DNA of 64,000 bases. It comes from Linanthus parryae. Lineage: Eukaryota > Streptophyta > Magnoliopsida > Ericales > Polemoniaceae. A program made the translations under genes and the position numbers. Under the pieces are notes generated by a model. It did no database searches. It was given only the letters and a program-made list of their open reading frames with translations, and had not been told where the DNA came from. The stretch is from assembly GCA_023055425.1 (NCBI GenBank), contig JALGPY010000010.1, positions 53,047,665 through 53,111,664 of the forward strand, given 5' to 3'. Positions 20,531 to 50,513 of the stretch are shown here, piece by piece (position 1 is the first letter of the stretch; each line of letters opens with the position of its first letter).

Positions 20531-23500
20531 TGTAACACCCCTATTTCTCAAGCGAGCTCTAAGTGCAATATCAAGACTTTGGGGGCGAATTTGTAAATAT
20601 TTTTTTTTCACGGCTTTAATGTGGGCATTTTGGAGCGTTGGCAATATTTGGACCTTGTTAGAATGATTTTGAGGCACTAGAGATGTTCGGGGTGGTTGTG
20701 CAATTCTCTACAAGTAAGTAGAAGCTTTATTTCTAGTTGTACCCAAAAGTTTAGAAAACTACACTTTCACCCCCACTATGCATGTAAGACACTTGTTAAC
20801 ATTCTTTTGACACCCAAAAGCTAGGTGGCAGCTCCAATCTCCCTCTTCAGCACCAGCTGATTTTTGTCAAAGAGGAATTCTCATCTCTTTCCATCATCAT
20901 CATCTTCTTCTTCCTATTCACCACCAACAACCACCAACTCCACCCTAGCTCTACCACCACTTCACCATCTGGAAAGCTGCTATAGCTGGAGGTAGAGGGT
21001 GACCAGGGGATCAAAAGGCACAAATCAATTTCAGGGGAGGGGACGTATCGAGAGAGAAAAATCAATCCTAAGGTATGAACCCTAGCTTAGTAATCGGTCA
21101 AATTCTCCTTCATCCTTGCGTTTCAGCCCCTCTAATCAGTCTTGTTGTGTTCCTGTGGTGATTGCGAGCATGACACACCCAAAATCAGCAGCCAATTCGT
21201 CCGATTTTGACCTTCGCCGGAATCTGGGTTCGAAAACCCGTCGGGAGCACCATCGGTGGCTGGGCTTGGTGGTTTTGTCCGTTCGTGGCCTTCTCTTTCC
21301 GTTCCAGCAGTTGCTTCAGGACTCTGAGCATCGTGGACAATGCTGGCGAACTCAGAAGCACCAGGGGACGCGTTGAATCGCCGGCAACCAAGTCGTGGGT
21401 CGTCGGAATCCGCCATGGCCGCCGGAATCCGCAGAGCTTGGTACAGCCCCTTTTTCTTGCTTGTTTTGATCGATTGAAAGCAGGAGCATGATCCTAATCA
21501 CGTCTAGAACACATTTAGATCACCTAAACACGACTGTAACAAAAAATTATACGGGTTTGATTCGTGCATGTTGAGTGATACGGTTTGAAAACCTGCCCTG
21601 TTCGTCGGCCTGTAACTCCCTTAATCTTGACCAAATAATGCGCGGTTTCTTCCTATGTACTCCTGGGTATGTTGGCTACAAGTTTGGTGTTAATTTCTTC
21701 TTCCAATTCGGTCTCTACCACCCCTGAAATTGGGCTTGAACATGGCTAGTTAGCAAAGTGGTTGCTGTGTTCTTGGCTGCCAAGTGCCAAAAAAAAATTC
21801 TAAGTATGAAAAGTCATTGTGAAACCCTCATTTTGTAACCCTTGTATCTTCTTCAAAACTTAATGAAATTTGGATCTGTTTTCTCCTTTGTGAAGCTGAT
21901 ACATAATACTTCAAATCATCGTCTCTGGGTCATGTTCAAATTTATAACGGATTTCTCACAAAACGATCCTAAAGTTGCTAGTTTGAACTCGCGAAGCACT
22001 ATCGAATTTTTCTAAGTATTGAATCGTAATTTTCATCCAACTTTGGCTAGCGATATTTCTTTGAATACTTGGAGTTTTTAGGAGTTCAAATATGTTCTGG
22101 AATCCTTGCAATGTCATCTTCAAAACCCTATTTCCGGTTTCTTAAAACTCCTTCTCAATTGATCATAAATCAGTCGCGAAGTTGACTACTTGAAAAGACT
22201 TTTCGCTATCTTTGATATTCGGTTTTGAGCATTTGAATGACGTTTCTGGCCTTAACGTTCTTCACGAAACTTGTTCGTATTCATATTCTGAGTCTATATA
22301 TCAATTTTGACCAAGTTTGACTTTCCGAAAACCCTAGTTTGACTGAACTGTATAGGAGGGGCAAAATAGTCATTTCACATAAAATTTGAATTGAGGTTAG
22401 TTTAGTAACTTGGAGTTTGTCAGCATGTCTTGTATGCGTGTTTGGAGTACTTGTATGTAATTCTGGGCTAGGGTTGACCAAGTCAAATGTGGGGGTCTTT
22501 TTGCAGTTTTGCTAAACTTCTGGGGCCTATGTGCAATTAATTAAAACTTTGCATTTGAACAAAGTTAATGTTTGGAGACCAACAACCTGACTTAGAAGGA
22601 TACTTGGAGCCTTAAGAAGGAAGTATTTGACTCGGGAGTGACCAAATCAATAGTTGGGGTCCTTTTGCAATTTAAGAAAATTTTAGGGGCCTAAGTGCAA
22701 TTTATTGAAAGTTGTAGATTTCGTTGCTAAGTTCATATGGAAGAGTTTGAAGTTAATTCTCGCATGTCTTCGGGCCAATATGAGTATAATTTGGGATCTA
22801 GGAAGTTTCAGACACTGTACTAAACGGTTTTGGAGTATCAGGGGCATTTTGGTCAAGTTAGCTTGCATGACCTGCATTTCATTGCATTCTTGCATAAAAC
22901 CTCATATAGAGGGTAAATGCTAATAGACTGTATACTTGACTTGTTTATATCCAGCCGTTGTTCAGGACCGTTCCGCAATAGACGAACGTGTTCGTATCGC
23001 TGCATTCATTGTTAGACCGGATTCACATGAGATGAGCGTTATATGAGTGCTAGCTTTGCTTTGCGCCTTTCATGGCTCAGAGGTAAGTACATATGTACGG
23101 CCTTTTCATATCAAAATCTGCGTATGTGTTTGATGTTTCAAATGAATGTTGTCATATGAAATAGTATGAGAATGCATGTTTTCCACTCGAAAGTTGTTAA
23201 ACTATTTTATTCATCTCCTTTGAGAACTCTCGGAAATTACTTGTCAAAATTTTGATACCTTGATTCTGGTTATGTGACAGAGAAGAAATAAAATACCTCT
23301 AATAGACTTAGGACGATGTAGAGAGTACTGTTATTAATGGGAGGCGTCAAGCGATCCTCCATTTTCTTATGGCTAAGACCATTGAAGCAATGCTTCTTAT
23401 TATTGGATAGAACGTCAATGTTCAAAAATCCGCCCCCGATGAGCCAAAATGTATCAAGATATTGAGGCCAAGGGGTTTATAGAGCTATAGAGTGCTACTT

Positions 23501-24315
23501 ATACTTGTAAGGGTCACTACGGTATAGGGGTGTCGACACTTAAGGCCTTTTAGCTAATGTTGTGAGCGGGGTTGACGAATGGGCTCCCTTAACGCTCGGG
23601 TGAAATAGGGTTTGACAGACCCTAGAAGGAACCCTTAGTGATTATTTCTTTATCCCTATGTTTACATCGATCCTGCTGGTGGCTCTTGACACGCCTCAGC
23701 TAAATTAAACTGTTGATTGAAGTCGAAATTCAAAATTGGCTACTTATTAATGTTGTTTGTGGCTCTTGATATGCCCTTATTGATTTGAAATGAATTGTAA
23801 ATCTTGGCTACTCATGAAGTACTACCGTTATTAGTTCAAATGAACTTGTTTACTCTGGATATTTTACCAACTACTCGTGGTTTCTCAATGTTATTAAATT
23901 GAGAGGTTTTTGTTACTCGTTTACTTCCAGTTGTTCCAAATTCTCCAACATGATAGCTTTACTATTTAACTCTTCTAATTTGTTTCAACTCATGCTTCCG
24001 TGCCACTCGATGCTTTACATGTCGTAGTATGTATTTACTCAGTTTTTACTGATTATTTCTTCAAAACTGCGTCGGCATTTGCCATTTTAAAACCGCAGGT
24101 CGTCAATCAAAGAGGGGGTTGGGAACGCTGGAACGAGACGAAGAAGTTTAGCTTAAGTCAGATCACTTAGTAGATCACACACGATTTGTTTTAGATTGTA
24201 CTTATTATCGAAATTTTGTTATGTACATTAAGCCAAATGTAATATTAATTGTATATTTCTAATTTTGGTTGTCGATTGTCTCTTTAACCCTGAACCGAGA
24301 TCCCGGGTAGTTTCA
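20531..24315 (+). repeat. Array LTR 1 (outer left)
   Basis: 3,785 bp. It carries the most private differences of the six, concentrated in the first 2 kb (e.g. GGACCTTG for GGACGTTG near 20654, CTGATTTTTG for CTGAGTTTTG near 20858, and ACAAAAAATTA for ACAACAAATTA near 21539). Internal landmarks common to all copies are a CCA/CT-rich stretch near offset 350-440 followed by a GC-rich patch, as in R-region leaders of chromovirus LTRs, and TATATAT near offset 1,765. Confidence 0.95.
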
Positions 24316-25571
24316 GATGGTATCAGAGCATCGGTTCTCCGGTTAAAGTGACTTTTCGATATCCATTAGTAGTGAATAAGAAAGATAAAACGTTTTCGAA
24401 ATTTAAAAATTAACTAGGATAACTCAATTTGAAAATAAATGAAATAAACAAGCCGTCTGGGTGTTTGGGTACTTATCTATAGTTAAACTTGGTTTGTACT
24501 GTACTTGTTGATTAAATGTTAACGGCTATTTGTTTTGTGAATCATGCATTATCTGCTTGTCTATTAAAACGCGCAGTACCTATGTGACATTTATTTATAT
24601 CTAATTGTTTGTCCTATTTGTGAATGCGTATCTTTGACTCTTTATTATGTAAGTAATTTCTCGACGAGAGAGTAACGACGTTGTGACTGAGAAGACCCCG
24701 AGACCATTCTTTCGCACCTACGAGTGACGAACCTTAAAACATTAGTTTGAATTTGGTTTATTTTGAGTTAGTTTGACATGGTTCTTTCCAAAATTAGAAA
24801 CTTCTGAAAATAAAGTATTTATTACAAAAAAAAAATGGGTTCTGAAAAATTATTGACGTTTCGAGCTACCAAATGCCAAGTGATATTGACCACTTTGGTT
24901 ATCAGTCCGCTGGCGCGACTCTTAGTACGACGGTACTATAAGTTGTACCCGCTGTGTAGACTAAGTTGGAACATTTGAAGCACATGCGAGTTGTGTTGGA
25001 AAGGCACGTTGTGTGACGACACATAGTGTTCTTTCTCCCTCGTATGCGTGGAACACTTTAGGTGATTGGTTTATCTAACCCTATAGAGGTAAGACAACAT
25101 TTTTAACCCGGATGATTCAAGCAAAACGACATATTATCCTTGATAAAAGTATTTGTCTAAAAGTTCCGAGATTTGTATAAATTCTAGCAAATTTTTGAGT
25201 TGCTTCTAAAATTGAGAACTTGTATGTTGTTATCAAACTTTCAAAATCTTGTTTCGAACTCTTACTTGTACTAATCATATACGAAACCCTATTGTGATGC
25301 GAGTCTAGGCTGGATAGTAATATAGACTCATAATAGACCCCGTCGTGCGGAGAGTAAGAATGAGAAATTTCTACCGGTTAAGGTGTTTCTAGCTGACCAA
25401 CTAAGGAAGCCATATTTTGGGAGCAGAACATTCGACGAGAGCGGTTTATGTACTTGTCTGGCTAAGTCAAATAGACTGAGTCACTGTGCTACATTTCATG
25501 TGCATTTCATGTATGAGGGTAAGTATAGTATGAGATCTTCGGGGACGAAGATTCTTTTAAGGTGGGTAGAT
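24316..25571 (+). mobile_element. Array internal segment 1
   Basis: 1,256 bp; primer site at 24318, purine tract 25559-25570. Non-coding. Shares TATTATCC, TTTTTGAGTTGC and GCCATATTTTGGG with internal 3. Confidence 0.93.
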
Positions 25572-28500
25572 TGTAACACCCCTATTTCTCAAGCGAGCTC
25601 TAAGTGCAATATCAAGACTTTGGGGGCGAATTTGTAAATATTTTTTTTTCACGGCTTTAATGTGGGCATTTTGGAGCGTTGGCAATATTTGGACGTTGTT
25701 AGAATGATTTTGAGTCACTAGAGATGTTCGGGGTGGTTGTGCAATTCTCTACAAGTAAGTAGAAGCTCTATTTCTAGATGTACCCAAAAGTTTAGAAAAC
25801 TACACTTTCACCCCCACTATGCATGTAAGACACTTGTTAACATTCTTTTGACACCCAAAAGCTAGGTGGCAGCTCCAATCTCCCTCTTCAGCACCAGCTG
25901 AGTTTTGTCAAAGAGGAATTCTCATCTCTTTCCATCATCATCATCTTCTTCTTCCTATTCACCACCAACAACCACCAACTCCACCCTAGCTATACCACCA
26001 CTTCACCATCTGGAAAGCTGCTATAGCTGGAGGTAGAGGGTGACCAGGGGATCAAAAGGCACAAATCAATTTCAGGGGAGGGGACGTATCGAGAGAGAAA
26101 AATCAATCCTAAGGTATGAACCCTAGCTTAGTAATCGGTCAAATTCTCCTTCATCCTTGCGTTTCAGCCCCTCTAATCAGTCTTGTTGTGTTCCTGTGGT
26201 GATTGCGAGCATGACACACCCAAAATCAGCAGCCAATTCGTCCGATTTTGACCTTCGCCGGAATCTGGGTTCGAAAACCCGTCGGGAGCACCATCGGTGG
26301 CTGGGCTTGGTGGTTCTGTCCGTTCGTGGCCTTCTCTTTCCGTTCCAGCAGTTGCTTCAGGACTCTGAGCATCGTGGACAATGCTGGCGAACTCAGAAGC
26401 ACCAGGGGACGCGTTGAATCGCCGGCAACCAAGTCGTGGGTCGCCGGAATCCGCCATGGCCGCCGGAATCCGCAGAGCTTGGTACAGCCCCTTTTTCTTG
26501 CTTGTTTTGATCGATTGAAAGCAGGAGCATGATCCTAATCACGTCTAGAACAAATTTAGATCACCTAAACACGACTGTAACAACAAATTATACGGGTTTG
26601 ATTCGTGCATGTTGAGTTATACGGTTTGAAAACCTGCCCTGTTCGTCGGCCTGTAACTCCCTCAATTCTTGACCAAATAATGCGCGGTTTCTTCCTATGT
26701 ACTCCTGGGTATGTTGGCTACCAGTTTGGTGTTAATTTCTTCTTCCAATTCGGTCTCTACCACCCCTGAAATTGGGCTTGAACATGGCTAGTTAGCAAAG
26801 TGGTTGCTGTGTTCTTGGCTGCCAAGTGCCTAAAAAAAATTCTAAGTATGAAAAGTCATTGTGAAACCCTCATTTTGTAACCCTTGTATCTTCTTCAAAA
26901 CTTAATGAAATTTGGATCTGTTTTCTCCTTTGTGAAGCTGATACATAATACTTCAAATCATTGTCTCTGGGTCATGTTCAAATTTATAACGGATTTCTCA
27001 CAAAACGAGCCTAAAGTTGCTAGTTTGAACTCGCGAAGCACTATCGAATTTTTCTAAGTATTGAATCGTAATTTTCATCCAACTTTGGCTAGCGATATTT
27101 CTTTGAATACTTGGAGTTTTTAGGAGTTCAAATATGTTCTGGAATCCTTGCAATGTCATCTTCAAAACCCTATTTCCGGTTTCTTAAAACTCCTTCTCAA
27201 TTGATCATAAATCAATCGCGAAGTTGACTACTTGAAACGACTTTTCGCTATCTTTGATATTCGGTTTTGAGCTTTTGAATGACGTTTCTGGCCTTAACGT
27301 TCTTCACAAAACTTGTTCGTATTCATATTCTGAGTCTATATATCAATTTTGACCAAGTTTTACTTTCCGAAAACCCTAGTTTGACTGAACTGTATAGGAG
27401 GGGCAAAATAGTCATTTCACATAAACTTTGAATTGAGGTTAGTTTAGTAACTTGGAGTTTGTCAGCATGTCTTGTATGCGTGTTTGGAGTACTTGTATGT
27501 AATTCTGGGCTAGGGTTGACCAAGTCAAATGTGGGGGTCTTTTTGCAGTTTTGCTAAACTTCTGGGGCCTATGTGCAATTAATTAAAACTTTGCATTTGA
27601 ACAAAGTTAATGTTTGGAGACCAACAACCTGACTTAGAAGGATACTTGGAGCCTTAAGAAGGAAGTATTTGACTCGGGAGTGACCAAATCAATAGTTGGG
27701 GTCCTTTTGCAAATTAAGAAACTTTAGGGGCCTAAGTGCAATTTATTGAAAGTTGTAGATTTCGTTGCTAAGTTCATATGGAAGAGTTTGAAGTTAATTC
27801 TCGCATGTCTTCGGGCCAATATGAGTATAATTTGGGATCTAGGAAGTTTCAGACACTGTACTAAACGGTTTTGGAGTATCAGGGGCATTTTGGTCAAGTT
27901 AGCTTGCATGACCTGCATTTCATTGCATTCTTGCATAAAACCTCATATAGAGGGTAAATGCTAATAGACTGTATACTTGACTTGTTTATATCCAGCCGTT
28001 GTTCAGGACCGTTCCGCAATAGACGAACGTGTTCGTATCGCTGCATTCACTGTTAGACCGGATTCACATGAGATGAGCGTTATATGAGTGCTAGCTTTGC
28101 TTTGCGCCTTTCATGGCTCAGAGGTAAGTACATATGTACGGCCTTTTCATATCAAAATCTGCGTATGTGTTTGATGTTTCAAATGAATGTTGTCATATGA
28201 AATAGTATGAGAATGCATGTTTTCCACTCGAAAGTTGTTAAACTATTTTATTCATCTCCTTTGAGAACTCTCGGAAATTACTTGTCAAAATTTTGATACC
28301 TTGATTCTGGTTATGTGACAGAGAAGAAATAAAATACCTCTAATAGACTTAGGACGATGTACAGAGTACTGTTATTAATGGGAGGCGTCAAGCGATCCTC
28401 CATTTTCTTATGGCTAAGACCATTGAAGCAATGCTTCTTATTATTGGATAGAACGTCAATGTTCAAAAATCCGCCCCCGATGAGCCAAAATGTATCAAGA

Positions 28501-29356
28501 TATTGAGGCCAAGGGGTTTATAGAGCTATAGAGTGCTACTTATAGTTGTAAGGGTCACTACGGTATAGGGGTGTCGACACTTAAGGCCTTTTAGCTAATG
28601 TTGTGAGCGGGGTTGACGAATGGGCTCCCTTAACGCTCGGGTGAAATAGGGTTTGACAGACCCTAGAAGGAACCCTTAGTGATTATTTCTTTATCCCTCT
28701 GTTTACATCGATCCTGCTGGTGGCTCTTGACACGCCTCAGCTAAATTAAACTGTAGATTGAAGTCGAAATTCAAAATTGGCTACTTATTAATGTTGTTTG
28801 TGGCTCTTGATATGCCCTTATTGATTTGAAATGAATTGTAAATCTTGGCTACTCATGAAGTACTACCGTTATTAGTTCAAATGAACTTGTTTACTCTGGA
28901 TATTTTACCAACTACTCGTGGTTTCTCAATGTTATTAAATTGAGAGGTTTTTGTTACTCGTTTACTTCCAGTTGTTCCAAATTCTCCAACATGATAGCTT
29001 TACTATTTAACTCTTCTAATTTGTTTCAACTCATGCTTCCGTGCCACTCGATGCTTTACATGTCGTAGTATGTATTTACTTAGTTTTTACTGATTATTTC
29101 TTCAAAACTGCGTCGGCATTTGCCATTTTAAAACCGCAGGTCGTCAATCAAAGAGGGGGTTGGGAACGCTGGAACGAGACGAAGAAGTTTAGCTTAAGTC
29201 ATATCACTTAGTAGATCACACACGATTTGTTTTAGATTGTACTTATTATCGAAATTTTGTTATGTACATTAAGCCAAATGTAATATTAATTGTATATTTC
29301 TACTTTTGGTTGTCGATTGTCTCTTTAACCCTGAACCGAGATCCCGGGTAGTTTCA
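25572..29356 (+). repeat. Array LTR 2
   Basis: 3,785 bp. Shares GAGTCAC (25712), AATCATTGTC (26956) and TATAGTTG (28541) with LTR 4 only. Confidence 0.95.
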
Positions 29357-30612
29357 GATGGTATCAGAGCATCGGTTCTCCGGTTAAAGTGACTTTTCGA
29401 TATCCATTAGTAGAGAATAAGAAAGATAAAAAGTTTTCGAAATTTAAAAATTAACTAGGATAACTCAATTTGAAAATAAATGAAATAAACAAGCCGTCTG
29501 GGTGTTTGGGTACTTATCTATAGTTAAACTTGGTTTGTACTGTACTTGTTGATTAAATGTTAACGGCTATTTGTTTTGTGAATCATGCATTATCTGCTTG
29601 TCTATTTAAACGCGCAGTACCTATGTGACATTTATTTATATCTAATTGTTTGTCCTATTTGTGAATGCGTATCTTTGACTCTTTATTATGTAAGTAATTT
29701 CTCGACGAGAGAGTAACAACGTTGTGACTGAGAAGACCCCGAGACCATTCTTTCACACCTACGAGTGACGAACCTTAAAACATTAGTTTGAATTTGGTTT
29801 ATTTTGAGTTAGTTTGACATGGTTCTTTCCAAAATTAGAAACTTCTGAAAATAAAGTATTTATTACAAAAAAAAAATGGGTTCTGAAAAATTATTGACGT
29901 TTCGAGCTACCAAATGCCAAGTGATATTGACCACTTTGGTTATCAGTCCGCTGGCGCGACTCTTAGTACGACGGTACTATAAGTTGTACCCGCTGTGTAG
30001 ACTAAGTTGGAACATTTGAAGCACATGCGAGTTGTGTTGGAAAGGCACGTTGTGTGACGACACATAGTGTTCTTTCTCCCTCGTATGCGTGGAACACTTT
30101 AGGTGATTGGTTTATCTAACCCTATAGAGGTAAGACAACATTTTTAACCCGGATGATTCAAGCAAAACGACATATTAGCCTTGATAAAAGTATTTGTCTA
30201 AAAGTTCCGAGATTTGTATAAATTCTAGCAAATTTTTGGGTTGCTTCTAAAATTGAGAACTTGTATGTTGTTATCAAACTTTCAAAATCTTGTTTCGAAC
30301 TCTTACTTGTACTAATCATATACGAAACCCTATTGTGATGCGAGTCTAGGCTGGATAGTAATATAGACTCATAATAGACCCCGTCGTGCGGAGAGTAAGA
30401 ATGAGAAATTTCTACCGGTTAAGGTGTTTCTAGCTGACCAACTAAGGAAGCCATCTTTTGGGAGCAGAACATTCGACGAGAGCGGTTTATGTACTTGTCT
30501 GGCTAAGTCAAATAGACTGAGTCACTGTGCTACATTTCATGTGCATTTCATGTATGAGGGTAAGTATAGTATGAGATCTTCGGGGACGAAGATTCTTTTA
30601 AGGTGGGTAGAT
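29357..30612 (+). mobile_element. Array internal segment 2
   Basis: 1,256 bp; primer site at 29359. Private GATAAAAAG near 29425. Its 3' part matches internals 4 and 5 (TTTTTGGGTTGC, GCCATCTTTTGGG). Confidence 0.93.
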
Positions 30613-33600
30613 TGTAACACCCCTATTTCTCAAGCGAGCTCTAAGTGCAATATCAAGACTTTGGGGGCGAATTTGTAAATATTTTTTTTTCACGGCTTTA
30701 ATGTGGGCATTTTGGAGCGTTGGCAATATTTGGACGTTGTTAGAATGATTTTGAGGCACTAGAGATGTTCGGGGTGGTTGTGCAATTCTCTACAAGTAAG
30801 TAGAAGCTCTATTTCTAGTTGTACCCAAAAGTTCAAAAAACTACACTTTCACCCCCACTATGCATGTAAGACACTTGTTAACATTCTTTTGACACCCAAA
30901 AGCTAGGTGGCAGCTCCAATCTCCCTCTTCAGCACCAGCTGAGTTTTGTCAAAGAGGAATTCTCATCTCTTTCCATCATCATCATCTTCTTCTTCCTATT
31001 CACCACCAACAACCACCAACTCCACCCTAGCTATACCACCACTTCACCATCTGGAAAGCTGCTATAGCTGGAGGTACAGGGTGACCAGGGGATCAAAAGG
31101 CACAAATCAATTTCAGGGGAGGGGACGTATCGAGAGAGAAAAATCAATCCTAAGGTATGAACCCTAGCTTAGTAATCGGTCAAATTCTCCTTCATCCTTG
31201 CGTTTCAGCCCCTCTAATCAGTCTTGTTGTGTTCCTGTGGTGATTGCGAGCATGACACACCAGAAATCAGCAGCCAATTCGTCCGATTTTGACCTTCGCC
31301 GGAATCTGGGTTCGAAAACCCGTCGGGAGCACCATCGGTGGCTGGGCTTGGTGGTTCTGTCCGTTCGTGGCCTTCTCTTTCCGTTCCAGCAGTTGCTTCA
31401 GGACTCTGAGCATCGTGGACAATGCTGGCGAACTCAGAAGCACCAGGGGACGCGTTGAATCGCCGGCAACCAAGTCGTGGGTCGCCGGAATCCGCCATGG
31501 CCGCCGGAATCCGCAGAGCTTGGTACAGCCCCTTTTTCTTGCTTGTTTTGATCGATTGAAAGCAGGAGCATGATCCTAATCACGTCTAGAACAAATTTAG
31601 ATCACCTAAACACGACTGTAACAACAAATTATACGGGTTTGATTCGTGCATGTTGAGTTATACGGTTTGAAAACCTGCCCTGTTCGTCGGCCTGTAACTC
31701 CCTCAATTCTTGACCAAATAATGCGCGGTTTCTTCCTATGTACTCCTGGGTATGTTGGCTACAAGTTTGGTGTTAATTTCTTCTTCCAATTCGGTCTCTA
31801 CCACCCCTGAAATTGGGCTTGAACATGGCTAGTTAGCAAAGTGGTTGCTGTGTTCTTGGCTGCCAAGTGCCTAAAAAAAATTCTAAGTATGAAAAGTCAT
31901 TGTGAAACCCTCATTTTGTAACCCTTGTATCTTCTTCAAAACTTAATGAAATTTGGATCTGTTTTCTCCTTTGTGAAGCTGATACATAATACTTCAAATC
32001 ATCGTCTCTGGGTAATGTTCAAATTTATAACGGATTTCTCACAAAACGAGCCTAAAGTTGCTAGTTTGAACTCGCGAAGCACTATCGAATTTTTCTAAGT
32101 ATTGAATCGTAATTTTCATCCAACTTTGGCTAGCGATATTTCTTTGAATACTTGGAGTTTTTAGGAGTTCAAATATGTTCTGGAATCCTTGCAATGTCAT
32201 CTTCAAAACCCTATTTCCGGTTTCTTAGAACTCCTTCTCAATTAATCATAAATCAGTCGCGAAGTTGACTACTTGAAACGACTTTTCGCTATCTTTGATA
32301 TTCGGTTTTGAGCATTTGAATGACGTTTCTGGCCTTAACGTTCTTCACGAAACTTGTTCGTATTCATATTCTGAGTCTATATATCAATTTTGACCAAGTT
32401 TGACTTTCCGAAAACCCTAGTTTGACTGAACTGTATAGGAGGGGCAAAATAGTCATTTCACATAAACTTTGAATTGAGGTTAGTTTAGTAACTTGGAGTT
32501 TGTCAGCATGTCTTGTATGCGTGTTTGGAGTACTTGTATGTAATTCTGGGCTAGGGTTGACCAAGTCAAATGTGGGGGTCTTTTTGCAGTTTTGCTAAAC
32601 TTCTGGGGCCTATGTGCAATTAATTAAAACTTTGCATTTGAACAAAGTTAATGTTTGGAGACCAACAACCTGACTTAGAAGGATACTTGGAGCCTTAAGA
32701 AGGAAGTATTTGACTCGGGAGTGACCAAATCAATAGTTGGGGTCCTTTTGCAATTTAAGAAAATTTTAGGGGCCTAAGTGCAATTTATTGAAAGTTGTAG
32801 ATTTCGTTGCTAAGTTCATATGGAAGAGTTTGAAGTTAATTCTCGCATGTCTTCGGGCCAATATGAGTATAATTTGGGATCTAGGAAGTTTCAGACACTG
32901 TACTAAACGGTTTTGGAGTATCAGGGGCATTTTGGTCAAGTTAGCTTGCATGACCTGCATTTCATTGCATTCTTGCATAAAACCTCATATAGAGGGTAAA
33001 TGCTAATAGACTGTATACTTGACTTGTTTATATCCAGCCGTTGTTCAGGACCGTTCCGCAATAGACGAACGTGTTCGTATCGCTGCATTCATTGTTAGAC
33101 CGGATTCACATGAGATGAGCGTTATATGAGTGCTAGCTTTGCTTTGCGCCTTTCATGGCTCAGAGGTAAGTACATATGTACGGCCTTTTCATATCAAAAT
33201 CTGCGTATGTGTTTGATGTTTCAAATGAATGTTGTCATATGAAATAGTATGAGAATGCATGTTTTCCACTCGAAAGTTGTTAAACTATTTTATTCATCTC
33301 CTTTGAGAACTCTCGGAAATTACTTGTCAAAATTTTGATACCTTGATTCTGGTTATGTGACAGAGAAGAAATAAAATACCTCTAATAGACTTAGGACGAT
33401 GTACAGAGTACTGTTATTAATGGGAGGCGTCAAGCGATCCTCCATTTTCTTATGGCTAAGACCATTGAAGCAATGCTTCTTATTATTGGATAGAACGTCA
33501 ATGTTCAAAAATCCGCCCCCGATGAGCCAAAATGTATCAAGATATTGAAGCCAAGGGGTTTATAGAGCTATAGAGTGATACTTATACTTGTAAGGGTCAC

Positions 33601-34398
33601 TACGGTATAGGGGTGTCGACACTTAAGGCCTTTTAGCTAATGTTGTGAGCGGGGTTGACGAATGGGCTCCCTTAACGCTCGGGTGAAATAGGGTTTGACA
33701 GACCCTAGAAGGAACCCTTAGTGATTATTTCTTTATCCCTATGTTTACATCGATCCTGCTGGTGGCTCTTGACACGCCTCAGCTAAATTAAACTGTAGAT
33801 TGAAGTCGAAATTCAAAATTGGCTACTTATTAATGTTGTTTGTGGCTCTTGATATGCCCTTATTGATTTGAAATGAATTGTAAATCTTGGCTACTCATGA
33901 AGTACTACCGTTATTAGTTCAAATGAACTTGTTTACTCTGGATATTTTACCAACTACTCGTGGTTTCTCAATGTTATTAAATTGAGAGGTTTTTGTTACT
34001 CGTTTACTTCCAGTTGTTCCAAATTCTCCAACATGATAGCTTTACTATTTAACTCTTCTAATTTGTTTCAACTCATGCTTCCGTGCCACTCGATGCTTTA
34101 CATGTCGTAGTATGTATTTGCTCAGTTTTTACTGATTATTTCTTCAAAACTGCGTCGGCATTTGCCATTTTAAAACCGCAGGTCGTCAATCAAAGAGGGG
34201 GTTGGGAACGCTGGAACGAGACGAAGAAGTTTAGCTTAAGTCAGATCACTTAGTAGATCACACACGATTTGTTTTAGATTGTACTTATTATCGAAATTTT
34301 GTTATGTACATTAAGCCAAATGTAATATTAATTGTATATTTCTAATTTTGGTTGTCGATTGTCTCTTTAACCCTGAACCGAGATCCCGGGTAGTTTCA
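30613..34398 (+). repeat. Array LTR 3
   Basis: 3,786 bp. Shares TTCTTAGAACTCC and CAATTAATC (near 32225-32245) with LTR 5, and GGTACAGGG (31074) with LTR 6. Near its 3' end it matches LTR 1 (ATTCATTGTTAG, CCCTATGTTTAC). Confidence 0.95.
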
Positions 34399-38600: not shown

Positions 38601-39440
38601 TTTATAGAGCTATAGAGTGCTACTTATAGTTGTAAGGGTCACTACGGTATAGGGGTGTCGACACTTAAGGCCTTTTAGCTAATGTTGTGAGCGGGGTTGA
38701 CGACTGGGCTCCCTTAACGCTCGGGTGAAATAGGGTTTGACAGACCCTAGAAGGAACCCTTAGTGATTATTTCTTTATCCCTCTGTTTACATCGATCCTG
38801 CTGGTGGCTCTTGACACGCCTCAGCTAAATTAAACTGTTGATTGAAGTCGAAATTCAAAATTGGCTACTTATTAATGTTGTTTGTGGCTCTTGATATGCC
38901 CTTATTGATTTGAAATGAATTGTAAATCTTGGCTACTCATGAAGTAATACCGTTATTAGTTCAAATGAACTTGTTTACTCTGAATATTTTACCAACTACT
39001 CGTGGTTTCTCAATGTTATTAAATTGAGAGGTTTTTGTTACTCGTTGACTTCCAGTTGTTCCAAATTCTCCAACATGATAGCTTTACTATTTAACTCTTC
39101 TAATTTGTTTCAACTCATGCTTCCGTGCCACTCGATGCTTTACATGTCGTAGTATGTATTTACTCAGTTTTTACTGATTATTTCTTCAAAACTGCGTTGG
39201 CATTTGCCATTTTAAAACCGCAGGTCGTCAATCAAAGAAGGGGTTGGGAACGCTGGAACGAGACGAAGAAGTTTAGCTTAAGTCAGATCACTTAGTAGAT
39301 CACACACGATTTGTTTTAGATTGTACTTATTATCGAAATTTTGTTATGTACATTAAGCCAAATGTAATATTAATTGTATATTTCTAATTTTGGTTGTCGA
39401 TTGTCTCTTTAACCCTGAACCGAGATCCCGGGTAGTTTCA
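35654..39440 (+). repeat. Array LTR 4
   Basis: 3,787 bp. Matches LTR 2 at diagnostic sites in its first and middle thirds, and LTR 5 near its 3' end (TTGACGACTGG at 38697, TCGTTGACTTCC at 39042). Confidence 0.95.
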
Positions 39441-40697
39441 GATGGTATCAGAGCATCGGTTCTCCGGTTAAAGTGACTTTTCGATATCCATTAGTAGAGA
39501 ATAAGAAAGATAAAACGTTTCCGAAATTTAAAAATTAACTAGGATAACTCAATTTGAAAATAAATGAAATAAACAAGCCGTCTGGGTGTTTGGGTACTTA
39601 TCTATAGTTAAACTTGGTTTGTACTGTACTTGTTGATTAAATGTTAACGGCTATTTGTTTTGTGAATCATGCATTATCTGCTTGTCTATTTAAACGCGCA
39701 GTACCTATGTGACATTTATTTATATCTAATTGTTTGTCCTATTTGTGAATGCGTATCTTTGACTCTTTATTATGTAAGTAATTTCTCGACGAGAGAGTAA
39801 TGACGTTGTGACTGAGAAGACCCCGAGACCATTCTTTCGCACCTACGAGTGACGAACCTTAAAACATTAGTTTGAATTTAGGTTTATTTTGAGTTAGTTT
39901 GACATGGTTCTTTCCAAAATTAGAAACTTCTGAAAATAAAGTATTTATTACAAAAAAAAAATGGGTTCTGAAAAATTATTGACGTTTCGAGCTACCAAAT
40001 GCCAAGTGATATTGACCACTTTGGTTATCAGTCCGCTGGCGCGACTCTTAGTACGACGGTACTATAAGTTGTACCCGCTGTGTAGACTAAGTTGGAACAT
40101 TTGAAGCACATGCGAGTTGTGTTGGAAAGGCACGTTGTGTGACGACACATAGTGTTCTTTCTCCCTCGTATGCGTGGAACACTTTAGGTCATTGGTTTAT
40201 CTAACCCTATAGAGGTAAGACAACATTTTTAACCCGGATGATTCAAGCAAAACGACATATTAGCCTAGATAAAAGTATTTGTCTAAAAGTTCCGAGATTT
40301 GTATAAATTCTAGCAAATTTTTGGGTTGCTTCTAAAATTGAGAACTTGTATGTTGTTATCAAACTTTCAAAATCTTGTTTCGAACTCTTACTTGTACTAA
40401 TCATATACGAAACCCTATTGTGATGCGAGTCTAGGCTGGATAGTAATATAGACTCATAATAGACCCCGTCGTGCGGAGAGTAAGAATGAGAAATTTCTAC
40501 CGGTTAAGGTGTTTCTAGCTGACCAACTAAGGAAGCCATCTTTTGGGAGCAGAACATTCGACGAGAGCGGTTTATGTACTTGTCTGGCTAAGTCAAATAG
40601 ACTGAGTCACTGTGCTACATTTCATGTGCATTTCATGTATGAGGGTAAGTATAGTATGAGATCTTCGGGGACGAAGATTCTTTTAAGGTGGGTAGAT
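39441..40697 (+). mobile_element. Array internal segment 4
   Basis: 1,257 bp; primer site at 39443. Shares CGTTTCCGAAAT with internal 5; 3' variants match internals 2 and 5. One extra A in GAATTTAGGTTT near 39877. Confidence 0.93.
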
Positions 40698-43600
40698 TGT
40701 AACACCCCTATTTCTCAAGCGAGCTCTAAGTGCAATATCAAGACTTTGGGGGCGAATTTGTAAATATTTTTTTTTCACGGCTTTAATGTGGGCATTTTGG
40801 AGCGTTGGCAATATTTGGACGTTGTTAGAATGATTTTGAGGCACTAGAGATGTTCGGGGTGGTTGTGCAATTCTCTACAAGTAAGTAGAAGCTCTATTTC
40901 TAGTTGTACCCAAAAGTTCAGAAAACTACACTTTCACCCCCACTATGCATGTAAGACACTTGTTAACATTCTTTTGACACCCAAAAGCTAGGTGGCAGCT
41001 CCAATCTCCCTCTTCAGCACCAGCTGAGTTTTGTCAAAGAGGAATTCTCATCTCTTTCCATCATCATCATCTTCTTCTTCCTATTCACCACCAACAACCA
41101 CCAACTCCACCCTAGCTATACCACCACTTCACCATCTGGAAAGCTGCTATAGCTGGAGGTAGAGGGTGACCAGGGGATCAAAAGGCACAAATCAATTTCA
41201 GGGGAGGGGACGTATCGAGAGAGAAAAATCAATCCTAAGGTATGAACCCTAGCTTAGTAATCGGTCAAATTCTCCTTCATCCTTGCGTTTCAGCCCCTCT
41301 AATCAGTCTTGTTGTGTTCCTGTGGTGATTGCGAGCATGACACACCCAAAATCAGCAGCCAATTCGTCCGGTTTTGACCTTCGCCGGAATCAGGGTTCGA
41401 AAACCCGTCGGGAGCACCATCGGTGGCTGGGCTTGGTGGTTCTGTCCGTTCGTGGCCTTCTCTTTCCGTTCCAGCAGTTTCTTCAGGACTCTGAGCATCG
41501 TGGACAATGCTGGCGAACTCAGAAGCACCAGGGGACGCGTTGAATCGCCGGCAACCAAGTCGTGGGTCGCCGGAATCCGCCATGGCCGCCGGAATCCGCA
41601 GAGCTTGGTACAGCCCCTTTTTCTTGCTTGTTTTGATCGATTGAAAGCAGGAGCATGATCCTAATCACGTCTAGAACAAATTTAGATCACCTAAACACGA
41701 CTGTAACAACAAATTATACGGGTTTGATTCGTGCATGTTGAGTTATACGGTTTAAAAACCTGCCCTGTTCGTCGGCCTGTAACTCCCTCAATTCTTGACC
41801 AAATAATGCGCGGTTTCTTCCTATGTACTCCTGGGTATGTTGGCTACAAGTTTGGTGTTAATTTCTTCTTCCAATTCGGTCTCTACCACCCCTGAAATTG
41901 GGCTTGAACATGGCTAGTTAGCAAAGTGGTTGCTGTGTTCTTGGCTGCCAAGTGCCTAAAAAAAATTCTAAGTATGAAAAGTCATTGTGAAACCCTCATT
42001 TTGTAACCCTTGTATCTTCTTCAAAACTTAATGAAATTTGGATCTGTTTTCTCCTTTGTGAAGCTGATACATAATACTTCAAATCATCGTCTCTGGGTCA
42101 TGTTCAAATTTATAACGGATTTCTCACAAAACGAGCCTAAAGTTGCTAGTTTGAACTCGCGAAGCACTATCGAATTTTTCTAAGTATTGAATCGTAATTT
42201 TCATCCAACTTTGGCTAGCGATATTTCTTTGAATACTTGGAGTTTTTAGGAGTTCAAATATGTTCTGGAATCCTTGCAATGTCATCTTCAAAACCCTATT
42301 TCCGGTTTCTTAGAACTCCTTCTCAATTAATCATAAATCAGTCGCGAAGTTGACTACTTGAAACGACTTTTCGCTATCTTTGATATTCGGTTTTGAGCAT
42401 TTGAATGACGTTTCTGGCCTTAACGTTCTTCACGAAACTTGTTCGTATTCATATTCTGAGTCTATATATCAATTTTGACCAAGTTTGACTTTCCGAAAAC
42501 CCTAGTTTGACTGAACTGTATAGGAGGGGCAAAATAGTCATTTCACATAAACTTTGAATTGAGGTTAGTTTAGTATCTTGGAGTTTGTCAGCATGCCTTG
42601 TATGCGTGTTTGGAGTACTTGTATGTAATTCTGGGCTAGGGTTGACCAAGTCAAATGTGGGGGTCTTTTTGCAGTTTTGCTAAACTTCTGGGGCCTATGT
42701 GCAATTAATTAAAACTTTGCATTTGAACAATGTTAATGTTTGGAGACCAACAACCTGACTTAGAAGGATACTTGGAGCCTTAAGAAGGAAGTATTTGACT
42801 CGGGAGTGACCAAATCAATAGTTGGAGTCCTTTTGCAATTTAAGAAAACTTTAGGGGCCTAAGTGCAATTTATTGAAAGTTGTAGATTTCGTTGCTAAGT
42901 TCATATGGAAGAGTTTGAAGTTAATTCTCGCATGTCTTCGGGCCAATATGAGTATAATTTGGGATCTAGGAAGTTTCAGACACTGTACTAAACGGTTTTG
43001 GAGTATCAGGGGCATTTTGGTCAAGTTAGCTTGCATGACCTGCATTTCATTGCATTCTTGCATAAAACCTCATATAGAGGGTAAATGCTAATAGACTGTA
43101 TACTTGACTTGTTTATATCCAGCCGTTGTTCAGGACCGTTCCGCAATAGACGAACGTGTTCGTATCGCTGCATTCACTGTTAGACCGGATTCACATGAGA
43201 TGAGCGTTATATGAGTGCTAGCTTTGCTTTGCGCCTTTCATGGCTCAGAGGTAAGTACATATGTACGGCCTTTTCATATCAAAATCTGCGTATGTGTTTG
43301 ATGTTTCAAATGAATGTTGTCATATGAAATAGTATGAGAATGCATGTTTTCCACTCGAAAGTTGTTAAACTATTTTATTCATCTCCTTTGAGAACTCTCG
43401 GAAATTACTTGTCAAAATTTTGATACCTTGATTCTGGTTATGTGACAGAGAAGAAATAAAATACCTCTAATAGACTTAGGACGATGTACAGAGTACTGTT
43501 ATTAATGGGAGGCGTCAAGCGATCCTCCATTTTCTTATGGCTAAGACCATTGAAGCAATGCTTCTTATTATTGGATAGAACGTCAATGTTCAAAAATCCG

Positions 43601-44483
43601 CCCCCGATGAGCCAAAATGTATCAAGATATTGAGGCCAAGGGGTTTATAGAGCTATAGAGTGCTACTTATACTTGTAAGGGTCACTACGGTATAGGGGTG
43701 TCGACACTTAAGTTCTTTTAGCTAATGTTGTGAGCGGGGTTGACGACTGGGCTCCCTTAACGCTCGGGTGAAATAGGGTTTGACAGACCCTAGAAGGAAC
43801 CCTTAGTGATTATTTCTTTATCCCTCTGTTTACATCGATCCTGCTGGTGGCTCTTGACACGCCTCAGCTAAATTAAACTGTTGATTGAAGTCGAAATTCA
43901 AAATTGGCTACTTATTAATGTTGTTTGTGGCTCTTGATATGCCCTTATTGATTTGAAATGAATTGTAAATCTTGGCTACTCATGAAGTACTACCGTTATT
44001 AGTTCAAATGAACTTGTTTACTCTGGATATTTTACCAACTACTCGTGGTTTCTCAATGTTATTAAATTGAGAGGTTTTTGTTACTCGTTGACTTCCAGTT
44101 GTTCCAAATTCTCCAACATGATAGCTTTACTATTTAACTCTTCTAATTTGTTTCAACTCATGCTTCCGTGCCACTCGATGCTTTACATGTCGTAGTATGT
44201 ATTTACTCAGTTTTTACTGATTATTTCTTCAAAACTGCGTCGGCATTTGCCATTTTAAAACCGCAGGTCGTCAATCAAAGAGGGGGTTGGGAACGCTGGA
44301 ACGAGACGAAGAAGTTTAGCTTAAGTCAGATCACTTAGTAGATCACACACGATTTGTTTTAGATTGTACTTATTATCGAAATTTTGTTATGTACATTAAG
44401 CCAAATGTAATATTAATTGTATATTTCTACTTTTGGTTGTCGATTGTCTCTTTAACCCTGAACCGAGATCCCGGGTAGTTTCA
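40698..44483 (+). repeat. Array LTR 5
   Basis: 3,786 bp. Shares the TTAGAACTCC/TTAATC pair with LTR 3 and TTGACGACTGG with LTR 4. Private changes include CCAATCAGGGTTCG-type substitutions near 41390. Confidence 0.95.
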
Positions 44484-45739
44484 GATGGTATCAGAGCATC
44501 GGTTCTCCGGTTAAAGTGACTTTTCGGTATCCATTAGTAGAGAATAAGAAAGATAAAACGTTTCCGAAATTTAAAAATTAACTAGGATAACTCAATTTGA
44601 AAATAAATGAAATAAACAAGCCGTCTGGGTGTTTGGGTACTCATCTATAGTTAAACTTGGTTTGTACTGTACTTGTTGATTAAATGTTAACGGCTATTTG
44701 TTTTGTGAATCATGCATTATCTGCTTGTTTATTTAAACGCGCAGTACCTATGTGACATTTATTTATATCTAATTGTTTGTCCTATTTGTGAATGCGTATC
44801 TTTGACTCTTTATTATGTAAGTAATTTCTCGACGAGAGAGTAACGACGTTGTGACTGAGAAGACCCCGAGACCATTCTTTCGCACCTACGAGTGACGAAC
44901 CTTAAAACATTAGTTTGAATTTGGTTTATTTTGAGTTAGTTTGACATGGTTCTTTCCAAAATTAGAAACTTCTGAAAATAAAGTATTTATTACAAAAAAA
45001 AAATGGGTTCTGAAAAATTATTGATGTTTCGAGCTACCAAATGCCAAGTGATATTGACCACTTTGGTTATCAGTCCGCTGGCGCGACTCTTAGTACGACG
45101 GTACTATAAGTTGTACCCGCTGTGTAGACTAAGTTGGAACATTTGAAGCACATGCGAGTTGTGTTGGAAAGGCACGTTGTGTGACGACACATAGTGTTCT
45201 TTCTCCCTCGTATGCGTGGAACACTTTAGGTGATTGGTTTATCTAACCCTATAGAGGTAAGACAACATTTTTAACCCGGATGATTCAAGCAAAACGACAT
45301 ATTAGCCTTGATAAAAGTATTTGTCTAAAAGTTCCGAGATTTGTATAAATTCTAGCAAATTTTTGGGTTGCTTCTAAAATTGAGAACTTGTATGTTGTTA
45401 TCAAACTTTCAAAATCTTGTTTCGAACTCTTACTTGTACTAATCATATACGAAACCCTATTGTGATGCGATTCTAGGCTGGATAGTAATATAGACTCATA
45501 ATAGACCCCGTCGTGCGGAGAGTAAGAATGAGAAATTTCTACCGGTTAAGGTGTTTCTAGCTGACCAACTAAGGAAGCCATCTTTTGGGAGCAGAACATT
45601 CGACGAGAGCGGTTTATGTACTTGTCTGGCTAAGTCAAATAGACTGAGTCACTGTGCTACATTTCATGTGCATTTCATGTATGAGGGTAAGTATAGTATG
45701 AGATCTTCGGGGACGAAGATTCTTTTAAGGTGGGTAGAT
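44484..45739 (+). mobile_element. Array internal segment 5
   Basis: 1,256 bp; primer site at 44486, purine tract ending just before 45740. Shares its variants with internals 2 and 4. Confidence 0.93.
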
Positions 45740-48700
45740 TGTAACACCCCTATTTCTCAAGCGAGCTCTAAGTGCAATATCAAGACTTTGGGGGCGAATT
45801 TGTAAATATTTTTTTTTCACGGCTTTAATGTGGGCATTTTGGAGCGTTGGCAATATTTGGACGTTGTTAGTATGATTTTGAGGCACTAGAGATGTTCGGG
45901 GTGGTTGTGCAATTCTCTACAAGTAAGTAGAAGCTCTATTTCTAGTTGTACCCAAAAGTTCAGAAAACTACACTTTCACCCCCACTATGCATGTAAGACA
46001 CTTGTTAACATTCTTTTGACACCCAAAAGCTAGGTGGCAGCTCCAATCTCCCTCTTCAGCACCAGCTGAGTTTTGTCAAAGAGGAATTCTCATCTCTTTC
46101 CATCATCATCATCTTCTTCTTCCTATTCACCACCAACAACCACCAACTCCACCCTAGCTATACCACCACTTCACCATCTGGAAAGCTGCTATAGCTGGAG
46201 GTACAGGGTGACCAGGGGATCAAAAGGCACAAATCAATTTCAGGGGAGGGGACGTATCGAGAGAGAAAAATCAATCCTAAGGTATGAACCCTAGCTTAGT
46301 AATCGGTCAAATTCTCCTTCATCCTTGCGTTTCAGCCCCTCTAATCAGTCTTGTTGTGTTCCTGTGGTGATTGCGAGCATGACACACCCAAAATCAGCAG
46401 CCAATTCGTCCGATTTTGACCTTCGCCGGAATCTGGGTTCGAAAACCCGTCGGGAGCACCATCGGTGGCTGGGCTTGGTGGTTCTGTCCGTTCGTGGCCT
46501 TCTCTTTCTGTTCCAGCAGTTGCTTCAGGACTCTGAGCATCGTGGACAATGCTGGCGAACTCAGAAGCACCAGGGGACGCGTTGAATCGCCGGCAACCAA
46601 GTCGTGGGTCGCCGGAATCCGCCATGGCCGCCGGAATCCGCAGAGCTTGGTACAGCCCCTTTTTTTTGCTTGTTTTGATCGATTGAAAGCAGAAGCATGA
46701 TCCTAATCACGTCTAGAACACATTTAGATCACCTAAACACGACTGTAACAACAAATTATACGGGTTTGATTCGTGCATGTTGAGTTATACGGTTTGAAAA
46801 CCTGCCCTGTTCGTCGGCCTGTAACTCCCTCAATTCTTGACCAAATAATGCGCAGTTTCTTCCTATGTACTCCTGGGTATGTTGGCTACAAGTTTGGTGT
46901 TAATTTCTTCTTCCAATTCGGTCTCTACCACCCCTGAAATTGGGCTTGAACATGGCTAGTTAGCAAAGTGGTTGCTGTGTTCTTGGCTGCCAAGTGCCTA
47001 AAAAAAATTCTAAGTATGAAAAGTCATTGTGAAACCCTCATTTTGTAACCCTTGTATCTTCTTCAAAACTTAATGAAATTTGGATCTGTTTTCTCCTTTG
47101 TGAAGCTGATACATAATACTTCAAATCATCGTCTCTGGGTCATGTTCAAATTTATAACGGATTTCTCACAAAACGAGCCTAAAGTTGCTAGTTTGAACTC
47201 GCGAAGCACTATCGAATTTTTCTAAGTATTGAATCGTAATTTTCATCCAAATTTGGCTAGCGATATTTCTTTGAATACTTGGAGTTTTTAGGAGTTCAAA
47301 TATGTTCTGGAATCCTTGCAATGTCATCTTCAAAACCCTATTTCCGGTTTCTTAAAACTCCTTCTCAATTGATCATAAATCAGTCGCGAAATTGACTACT
47401 TGAAACGACTTTTCGCTATCTTTGATATTCGGTTTTGAGCATTTGAATGACGTTTCTGGCCTTAACGTTCTTCACGAAACTTGTTCGTATTCATATTCTG
47501 AGTCTATATATCAATTTTGACCAAGTTTGACTTTCCGAAAACCCTAGTTTGACTGAACTGTATAGGAGGGGCAAAATAGTCATTTCACATAAACTTTGAA
47601 TTGAGGTTAGTTTAGTAACTTGGAGTTTGTCAGCATGTCTTGTATGCGTGTTTGGAGTACTTGTATGTAATTCTGGGCTAGGGTTGACCAAGTCAAATGT
47701 GGGGGTCTTTTTGCAGTTTTGCTAAACTTTTGGGGCCTATGTGCAATTAATTAAAACTTTGCATTTGAACAAAGTTAATGTTTGGAGACCAACAACCTGA
47801 CTTAGAAGGATACTTGGAGCCTTAAGAAGGAAGTATTTGACTCGGGAGTGACCAAATCAATAGTTGGGGTCCTTTTGCAATTTAAGAAAACTTTAGGGGC
47901 CTAAGTGCAATTTATTGAAAGTTGTAGATTTCGTTGCTAAGTTCATATGGAAGAGTTTGAAGTTAATTCTCGCATGTCTTCGGGCCAATATGAGTATAAT
48001 TTGGGATCTAGGAAGTTTCAGACACTGTACTAAACGGTTTTGGAGTATCAGGGGCATTTTGGTCAAGTTAGCTTGCATGACCTGCATTTCATTGCATTCT
48101 TGCATAAAACCTCATATAGAGGGTAAATGCTAATAGACTGTATACTTGACTTGTTTATATCCAGCCGTTGTTCAGGACCGTTCCGCAATAGACGAACGTG
48201 TTCGTATCGCTGCATTCACTGTTAGACCGGATTCACATGAGAAGAGCGTTATATGAGTGCTAGCTTTGCTTTGCGCCTTTCATGGCTCAGAGGTAAGTAC
48301 ATATGTACGGCCTTTTCATATCAAAATCTGCGTATGTGTTTGATGTTTCAAATGAATGTTGTCATATGAAATAGTATGAGAATGCATGTTTTCCACTCGA
48401 AAGTTGTTAAACTATTTTATTCATCTCCTTTGAGAACTCTCAGAAATTACTTGTCAAAATTTTGATACCTTGATTCTGGTTATGTGACAGAGAAGAAATA
48501 AAATACCTCTAATAGACTTAGGACGATGTACAGAGTACTGTTATTAATGGGAGGCGTCAAGCGATCCTCCATTTTCTTATGGCTAAGACCATTGAAGCAA
48601 TGCTTCTTATTATTGGATAGAACGTCAATGTTCAAAAATCCGCCCCCGATGAGCCAAAATGTATCAAGATATTGAGGCCAAGGGGTTTATAGAGCTATAG

Positions 48701-49525
48701 AGTGCTACTTATACTTGTAAGGGTCACTACGGTATAGGGGTGTCGACACTTAAGGCCTTTTAGCTAATGTTGTGAGCGGGGTTGACGAATGGGCTCCCTT
48801 AACGCTCGGGTGAAATAGGGTTTGACAGACCCTAGAAGGAACCCTTAGTGATTATTTCTTTATCCCTCTGTTTACATCGATCCTGCTGGTGGCTCTTGAC
48901 ACGCCTCAGCTAAATTAAACTGTTGATTGAAGTCGAAATTCAAAATTGGCTACTTATTAATGTTGTTTGTGGCTCTTGATATGCCCTTATTGATTTGAAA
49001 TGAATTGTAAATCTTGGCTACTCATGAAGTACTACCGTTATTAGTTCAAATGAACTTGTTTACTCTGGATATTTTACCAACTACTCGTGGTTTCTCAATG
49101 TTATTAAATTGAGCGGTTTTTGTTACTCGTTTACTTCCAGTTGTTCCAAATTCTCCAACATGATAGCTTTACTATTTAAATATTCTAATTTGTTTCAACT
49201 CATGCTTCCGTGCCACTCGATGCTTTACATGTCGTAGTATGTATTTACTTAGTTTTTACTGATTATTTCTTCAAAACTGCGTCGGCATTTGCCATTTTAA
49301 AACCGCAGGTCGTCAATCAAAGAGGGGGATGGGAACGCTGGAACGAGACGAAGAAGTTTAGCTTAAGTCAGATCACTTAGTAGATCACACACGATTTGTT
49401 TTAGATTGTACTTATTATCGAAATTTTGTTATGTACATTAAGCCAAATGTAATATTAATTGTATATTTCTACTTTTGGTTGTCGATTGTCTCTTTAACCC
49501 TGAACCGAGATCCCGGGTAGTATCA
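45740..49525 (+). repeat. Array LTR 6 (outer right)
   Basis: 3,786 bp, ending GGTAGTATCA followed by the ATAGT duplicate. Many private changes (e.g. TTTCTGTTCC near 46505, GAGAAGAGCG near 48239, GAGCGGTTT near 49112, AAATATTCT near 49178). Shares CTAGAACACATTT with LTR 1 only. Confidence 0.95.
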
Positions 49526-49530
49526 ATAGT

Positions 49531-49568: not shown

Positions 49569-49573
49569 GGGCT

Positions 49574-50508: not shown

Positions 50509-50513
50509 GAGTT

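Follow-up and report, generated by a model that had tools for sequence, protein, structure and literature searches.

Architecture of the array

The window, by which we mean the whole stretch of 64,000 nucleotides of Linanthus parryae DNA that was analysed (G000:C2:53047665-53111664), contains at 20531-49525 a tandem array of a long terminal repeat (LTR) retrotransposon, in which six LTRs (3785-3787 bp) alternate with five internal segments (1255-1257 bp) in the order LTR-(internal-LTR)x5, with a spacing of 5041-5044 bp from unit to unit. The original prediction, made from the letters alone, had given the same six LTRs and five internals, with outer coordinates for the array that proved exact to the base, and its 5.04-kb repeat unit agrees with the measured spacing. 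Each internal opens with GATGGTATCAGAGC and closes with AAGGTGGGTAGAT, directly 5' of the next LTR, and all five keep, as had been claimed, both the primer-binding site (PBS) TGGTATCAGAGC and the purine-rich AAGGTGGGTAGA that precedes the following LTR; the latter includes Ts and is thus a loose polypurine tract (PPT). The LTRs start with TG and finish with CA (TGTAACACC...TTTCA or TATCA in all six), and these ends, together with a short target-site duplication (TSD), a PBS beside the 5' LTR and a purine tract before the 3' LTR, are those of an LTR retrotransposon. The features are the following:

17610-17935, + strand: paralogous empty site, a diverged duplicate of the target with a single ATAGT, continuous across the insertion point
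20526-20530, no strand: left copy of the TSD, ATAGT (flank comparison)
20531-24315, + strand: LTR1, taken as the original 5' LTR; it alone has the ancestral base at LTR position 421
24316-25571, + strand: internal 1; PBS TGGTATCAGAGC at 24318-24329, purine-rich tract at 25559-25571, no Pfam domain at the cut-off
25572-29356, + strand: LTR2, middle LTR, putative chimera
29357-30612, + strand: internal 2
30613-34398, + strand: LTR3, middle LTR; 3' part nearest LTR1
34399-35653, + strand: internal 3; nearest internal 1 (3 differences)
35654-39440, + strand: LTR4, middle LTR; first 1 kb nearest LTR2
39441-40697, + strand: internal 4
40698-44483, + strand: LTR5, middle LTR, putative chimera
44484-45739, + strand: internal 5
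45740-49525, + strand: LTR6, taken as the original 3' LTR; it alone has the ancestral base at LTR positions 3442 and 3591
49526-49530, no strand: right copy of the TSD, ATAGT (flank comparison)

This is the layout of a tandem LTR retrotransposon array, namely n + 1 LTRs for n internals, an LTR common to adjacent units and no inner TSD. The original prediction went further and had the array behave like a 5-kb satellite; the tandem unit stands, and the satellite is an analogy only, since satellite DNA forms long arrays of very many units, whereas there are five units here, about 12 in the largest array read, and from 2 to about 12 in the arrays of this family, which lie at scattered loci. Within the window the LTRs differ pairwise by 0.66-1.14 % and the internals by 0.24-0.88 %. 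The LTR differences include few transitions (34:53), and an unusual mutation spectrum was considered and discarded, other repeat pairs of the window being comparable (29:36, 12:12, 17:12 and 14:10).

None of the 18 open reading frames (at least 60 aa) that overlap the first unit, the part covered by the scan, reaches the Pfam cut-off, and the gag and pol of an autonomous element were not found in that unit. The element is therefore taken as a non-autonomous LTR retrotransposon, with an LTR of about 3.79 kb and an internal of about 1.26 kb without recognisable protein domains. We take its primer site, TGGTATCAGAGC, to match the initiator tRNA-Met, and the LTR start and the PPT presumably resemble those of elements of the Ty3 Tekay/Del lineage; no coding region that would serve a reverse transcriptase (RT) or chromodomain phylogeny was found. 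Large retrotransposon derivatives (LARDs) combine long LTRs with a conserved non-coding internal that is also long, at several kb; here the LTR is long, but the internal measures merely 1.26 kb. An element with a single unit would be about 8.8 kb long, well above the limit of roughly 1 kb given for terminal-repeat retrotransposons in miniature (TRIMs) in PMC4717578. No Rfam family reaches its threshold anywhere in the window.

A single insertion site

An LTR start can be paired with the end of its own LTR or of one further along in 21 ways, and only the outermost pair has identical flanking 5-mers, the two copies of ATAGT at 20526-20530 and 49526-49530; the inner LTR starts are preceded by TAGAT and the inner LTR ends followed by GATGG. 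The claim that only the outermost ends carry the duplication thus holds over all pairs, and ATAGT-like duplications between units, which the original prediction had named as a refutation, are absent from the inner junctions. The target region itself is a direct duplicate, with copies about 2.6 kb apart (17610-17935 versus 20267-20530 plus 49531-49569), one of which received the array; these duplicates are possibly the ends of another small element. When the two flanks of the array are joined, they match 17610-17935 with no break at the junction, 260 of 331 positions being identical and ATAGT occurring once. This uninterrupted alignment to a paralogous empty site argues for one insertion, the 29 kb having entered or grown at one place, and together with the single TSD pair it upholds the one insertion site that had been assigned to the entire array.

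Side-by-side independent insertions, or recombination between two neighbouring elements, would also give direct repeats of one family in a single orientation, and the latter is favoured for the multi-LTR Wukong elements in PMC4528315. Here, however, adjacent units have an LTR in common, inner TSDs are absent, the empty-site paralogue shows no additional junction sequence and the units are each other's nearest relatives in the tree of internals presented below, all of which leaves this explanation with hardly any probability.

The same signature was sought elsewhere in the family. Both outer ends were looked for in 15 arrays and reached in seven (one end or none in the other eight), and in all seven the outer 5-mers are identical: ATAGT in the window, ACAAC in the array at 94.9 Mb of C35 (seven LTRs), CTAAG in that of C90 (three LTRs), CAGCC in that at 22.15 Mb of C1 (five LTRs; C1:22.15 hereafter), plus CCATC, TCACC and GTATT. 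The chance of matching outer 5-mers is about 0.001 per pair.

Mutations shared between LTRs

Did the units arrive together or were they added after a single element had inserted? A single insertion grown in place by out-of-register homologous exchange between its LTRs is, in our view, very probably the answer. One non-autonomous LTR retrotransposon would have inserted once, duplicating ATAGT; later, when sister chromatids or homologues paired with these two LTRs out of register, the 3' LTR of one copy would have recombined homologously with the 5' LTR of its partner, a gain of one LTR-plus-internal unit. The new middle LTR would be a chimera that begins as the 3' LTR and continues as the 5' LTR. 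More out-of-register exchanges or conversions inside the growing array would have led to five units. An LTR retrotransposon inserts with two identical LTRs, and under an exchange between 3' LTR and 5' LTR any mutation that preceded the exchange is expected in every LTR except LTR1 if it lies on the left side of the LTR, and in every LTR except the last if it lies on the right.

Other genomic copies served to assign ancestral and derived bases, and 72 of the 90 variable LTR columns of the window array could be polarised in this way. LTR position 421 is derived in LTR2-6 and ancestral in LTR1 (6 of 7 outgroup votes), positions 3442 and 3591 are derived in LTR1-5 and ancestral in LTR6 (15 of 15 and 14 of 15 votes), and position 982 is derived in the middle LTR2-5 only (7 of 7 votes). 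We read positions 421, 3442 and 3591 as mutations acquired after insertion, by the 3' LTR (left) and by the 5' LTR (right), that the middle LTRs would have inherited. In the 3' third of LTR6 chance would give 0.05 reversions, and 2 such sites are seen (P 0.001, for a region picked after the sites had been seen).

The units have also copied from one another later on. A single tree cannot accommodate 64 of the 120 pairs of informative LTR sites, and a tract of 4 kb, from the 3' half of LTR1 through internal 1 to the 5' part of LTR2, shows 9 mismatches to the corresponding path from LTR3 to LTR4, a number as low as which was obtained in none of 1000 permutations of site positions. Private changes are uneven between LTR halves, with 13:1 in LTR1 and 2:15 in LTR4 (permutation P 0.0005). 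The match of the 4-kb tract and this unevenness point to copying between units two apart; the skew of unit sharing toward such units is weak by label permutation alone (P 0.027), the tract test being the stronger of the two.

Two sister arrays offer more sites of this kind. In C1:22.15, LTR2-5 are all changed at 54 and 2120 and lack 2 bp at 348-349; eight derived sites (809-2542) are common to LTR3-5, five (3124-3449) occur in LTR5 alone and 3514 is common to LTR2-4, while LTR3 and LTR4 differ from each other by four bases. Because of this sharing pattern, LTR3 and LTR4 are best read as LTR5 in their 5' part and LTR2 in their 3' part, with a putative breakpoint between 2542 and 3124. Informative site pairs are incompatible in 17 of 45 cases, and eight of these pair 3514 with the eight left-hand sites, as exchange predicts. 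The exchange may have been a crossover or a conversion. In C35, three substitutions and a 7-bp deletion are common to LTR2-6 and absent from LTR1, LTR7 and the outgroup, and position 2012 is derived in LTR2-7. Its middle LTRs lie 2-6 bases apart, whereas either outer LTR lies 9-13 from any other, and 10 of the 19 private changes fall in the outer LTRs against an expectation of 2/7 (P 0.02, by a hand count in which two adjacent changes were counted once), or 9 of 18 (P 0.045) without site 783. Such a distribution shows an age structure, with old outer LTRs and young middle ones.

These patterns bear on the integration of a ready-made concatemer, produced for example by reverse transcription of a tandem transcript or by template switching, which would leave one TSD as well. 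It predicts a single outer TSD and near-equal divergence of the units, both of which are seen in the window, and it fits the lack of a significant difference in private changes between outer and middle window LTRs; the mechanism is kept open by PMC11899658 and PMC7215508. On the other hand, the mutations common to LTR2-6 or to LTR1-5 are most readily dated to the interval between insertion and copying, the two later middle LTRs of C1:22.15 carry changes otherwise seen only in the outer 3' LTR, and the outer LTRs of C35 are, by the counts above, richer in private changes than the middle ones. As the sole cause, concatemer insertion fits poorly for C1:22.15 and C35 and is disfavoured by the polarised window sites too, and we hold it to be improbable.

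Growth in place by LTR exchange has its own difficulties, and the following points weigh against it. The primary polarised signal in the window consists of three sites, with 1.34 reversions expected over all 59 polarised singletons; the outer window LTRs are not significantly enriched in private changes (29 of 71, P 0.11); and the window divergence is nearly star-like and gives no order of steps. Site 654 of C1:22.15 has the derived base in no LTRs but LTR2 and LTR5 (3 outgroup votes) and takes part in nine incompatible pairs; it conflicts with a simple history and needs a repeat mutation or a conversion. Site 783 of C35 points the other way, as judged by a single outgroup about 18 % away; the C90 array, polarised against an outgroup about 17 % away, has two sites in accord and two in conflict; and an array at 69.68 Mb of C1 is unequally spaced (about 4.9 and 4.8 kb).

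On balance, the nucleotide sequence shows one insertion site, a local common origin of the units, addition of units after insertion and later copying between units two apart, with post-insertion addition supported by few sites in the window and by more in the two sister arrays. As far as sequence can tell, the original prediction was right in its mechanism, by which the long LTRs of one element recombine unequally, and the polarised sites support it (few in the window, stronger in the two other arrays). For the finer steps, that is, sister chromatid or homologue, and crossover or else conversion or break-induced repair, we infer rather than observe.

Common local origin of the units

A tree was built of 31 internals, to which the array on C46 contributed 6 of about 12. 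The window internals are at most 0.88 % apart, and the nearest of the other 26 lies 3.8 % away; the corresponding values are at most 0.24 % inside versus 4.1 % to the nearest outside copy in C35 and 0.72 % versus 1.1 % in C90, and C46 is less clear-cut, with up to 2.2 % inside versus 1.5 % outside. All four sets are monophyletic, with supports of 0.94 (window), 0.999 (C35) and 0.95 (C90), none being given for C46. The four arrays are separate in origin, and recruitment of unrelated family members into arrays is not favoured, the internals of each array being monophyletic.

This topology also bears on extrachromosomal one-LTR circles or cDNA that integrate homologously into a resident LTR, each adding one unit and no TSD. 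An integrase-independent homologous route of this sort in yeast is mentioned in PMC11899658, and it fits both the unit length and the single TSD. Foreign units should, however, break the monophyly, and the nearest outside internals are those 3.8 % (window) and 4.1 % (C35) away; moreover, the chimeras of C1:22.15 join LTRs from one array. We therefore regard this route as still less probable than a concatemer, while the data leave room for a variant in which circles excised from the array itself are reinserted.

Two further arrays were seen that are long or disrupted. The longest one read (G000:C46:107758834-107800198) has about 12 internals, one of them truncated and one inferred in an unread gap, a unit of about 3.49 kb, an LTR in which roughly positions 415-2423 of the window LTR have no counterpart, and a truncated internal as its left end. 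At G000:C2:45142319-45214732 there are eight units 98-100 % identical, some of them 13.8 and 33 kb apart, which suggests an array broken up by later insertions.

Frequency of arrays in the family

In the 1.51 Gb of genome searched, a pattern of LTR end plus primer site has 1485 matches at no more than 3 mismatches, and its reversed control has none. Frequencies were taken from 100 exact matches listed of the 1485, on seven contigs, a sample that misses mismatched neighbours. Among them, 53 have a same-strand neighbour no more than 6 kb away and form 16 arrays of 2-6. Outside the window, and again among the matches listed, 48 of the 95 sampled primer sites, which represent 62 loci, fall in 15 arrays; these are the further arrays returned by the genome-wide search for similar structures that the original prediction had proposed. 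Arrays are thus a habit of this family, with about half of the sampled copies in them. Unit length varies by at most 21 bp inside each of the 16 sampled arrays and from 4396 to 5460 bp between arrays. In all, 25 array loci were found, mostly by spacing only, and those of the window, C35, C90 and C1:22.15 were read through.

Two other families present in the window served as controls. Only 2 of 61 sites of the copia-type family are close to another, and 2 of 100 sites listed of 3412 in the gypsy-type family (one pair, 14.6 kb apart), a sparser sample in which pairs are more easily missed. The difference from the array-forming family is significant by Fisher's test both by sites (P <1e-10, sites not being independent) and by loci (P <0.001). 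The aligned LTR pairs of the controls are shorter, about 0.7 kb (copia-type) and 0.6 kb (gypsy-type), which makes LTR length a candidate cause of array frequency; on this inference the high rate would follow from the length of the LTR relative to the short internal.

These counts are relevant as well to an assembly artefact, a collapsed or falsely expanded repeat, which has to be considered for a locus known here from assembled sequence alone. Yet every window LTR has at least 7 private differences and every internal at least 1, like spacing recurs at 25 loci, the outer 5-mers match in 7 of the 7 arrays with both ends reached, and the control families of the same assembly show just 2 of 61 and 2 of 100 (listed) close sites. 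An artefact is accordingly very improbable.

Other copies of the family (L006-L030) have internals 93-96 % identical to those of the window, and the 3' part of their LTR also aligns well; the LTR region at about 285-1100 aligns poorly or not at all in most of them, as if this part of U3 were swapped or fast-evolving.

As for the neighbours of the array, the gypsy-type control element occupies 896-15907 on the - strand, with a repeat pair at 896-1523 and 15280-15907 (95 % identical), matches to gag, RT and integrase, a 54-bp tandem repeat at 8019-8677 and, on the opposite strand, an open reading frame with a plant mobile domain; we take its layout to be like that of Tat/Retand elements. The copia-type control element lies at 50512-55926 on the - strand, with an LTR-like pair at 50512-51189 and 55260-55926 and with gag and GAG-pre-integrase domains. 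The plant mobile domain and the plant-type retroelements give the window the content of plant DNA. Finally, 61732-63097 holds two short repeat pairs (61732/62462 and 62092/62983), 86-87 % identical.

Significance and comparison with known systems

The shared mutations of three arrays favour the in-place, post-insertion addition of units via LTR exchange, and the products of such exchange seem to have been kept in arrays of the family. With about half of the sampled copies in arrays and with four separate origins, early steps from a mobile element toward satellite-like DNA become comparable within one genome; copy counts and the dating of LTR pairs can mislead in families that form arrays. A bolder reading, to which we incline only slightly, is that the family multiplies by crossing-over between its own LTRs as much as by jumping. 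The LTR makes up about three quarters of the unit, so that nearly every out-of-register pairing would end inside it and each insertion would be the seed of a tandem array. If this were true, a single genome would hold dozens of independent satellite births that differ in age, some old at the edges and young in the core, and exchange rates, breakpoints and the order of events could be read from them.

The type of structure is known in plants, and what is added here is direct evidence of mechanism and a high array frequency. No study that reads the mechanism of such arrays from polarised shared mutations was found by titles and abstract openings, which is weak evidence of novelty. Tandem LTR retrotransposon arrays with an outer TSD have already been published in rice and other plants (Morales-Diaz et al. 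2025, PMC11899658), with a 5-bp outer TSD at the two loci detailed there and in 10 of 28 selected arrays, most of the arrays being Ty3 and Tekay being enriched in rice. As in those rice arrays, LTRs and internals alternate here between the copies of an outer 5-bp TSD; unlike them, with two internals at the detailed loci and coding domains in the 28 selected arrays, the present family has 2 to about 12 units and no recognisable coding domains. That study could not decide between complex insertion and recombination and left formation undecided, whereas here the shared mutations bear on the mechanism.

Among non-autonomous elements, tandemly arrayed TRIMs have been published (PMC4717578), and the maize Wukong family has members with up to seven LTRs (PMC4528315). 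Our element is likewise non-autonomous, but TRIMs are shorter than 1 kb (PMC4717578), while here the LTR alone takes about 3.8 kb, and multi-LTR members are given as 8 % of Wukong and 5 % of pear Cassandra (PMC4717578/PMC4528315) compared with 15 of 62 sampled loci here, the denominators being different. Cassandra arrays, too, alternate LTR and internal, with up to 12 units (PMC7215508); their mechanism of formation is left open there, and their LTRs are short and carry 5S RNA sequence, unlike the window, with no Rfam family at threshold. As in the Lathyrus satellites derived from Ogre, a retrotransposon supplies the growing tandem repeat; in Ogre (PMC7004042) the unit is a short repeat of the 3' untranslated region, whereas here it is the entire LTR plus internal.

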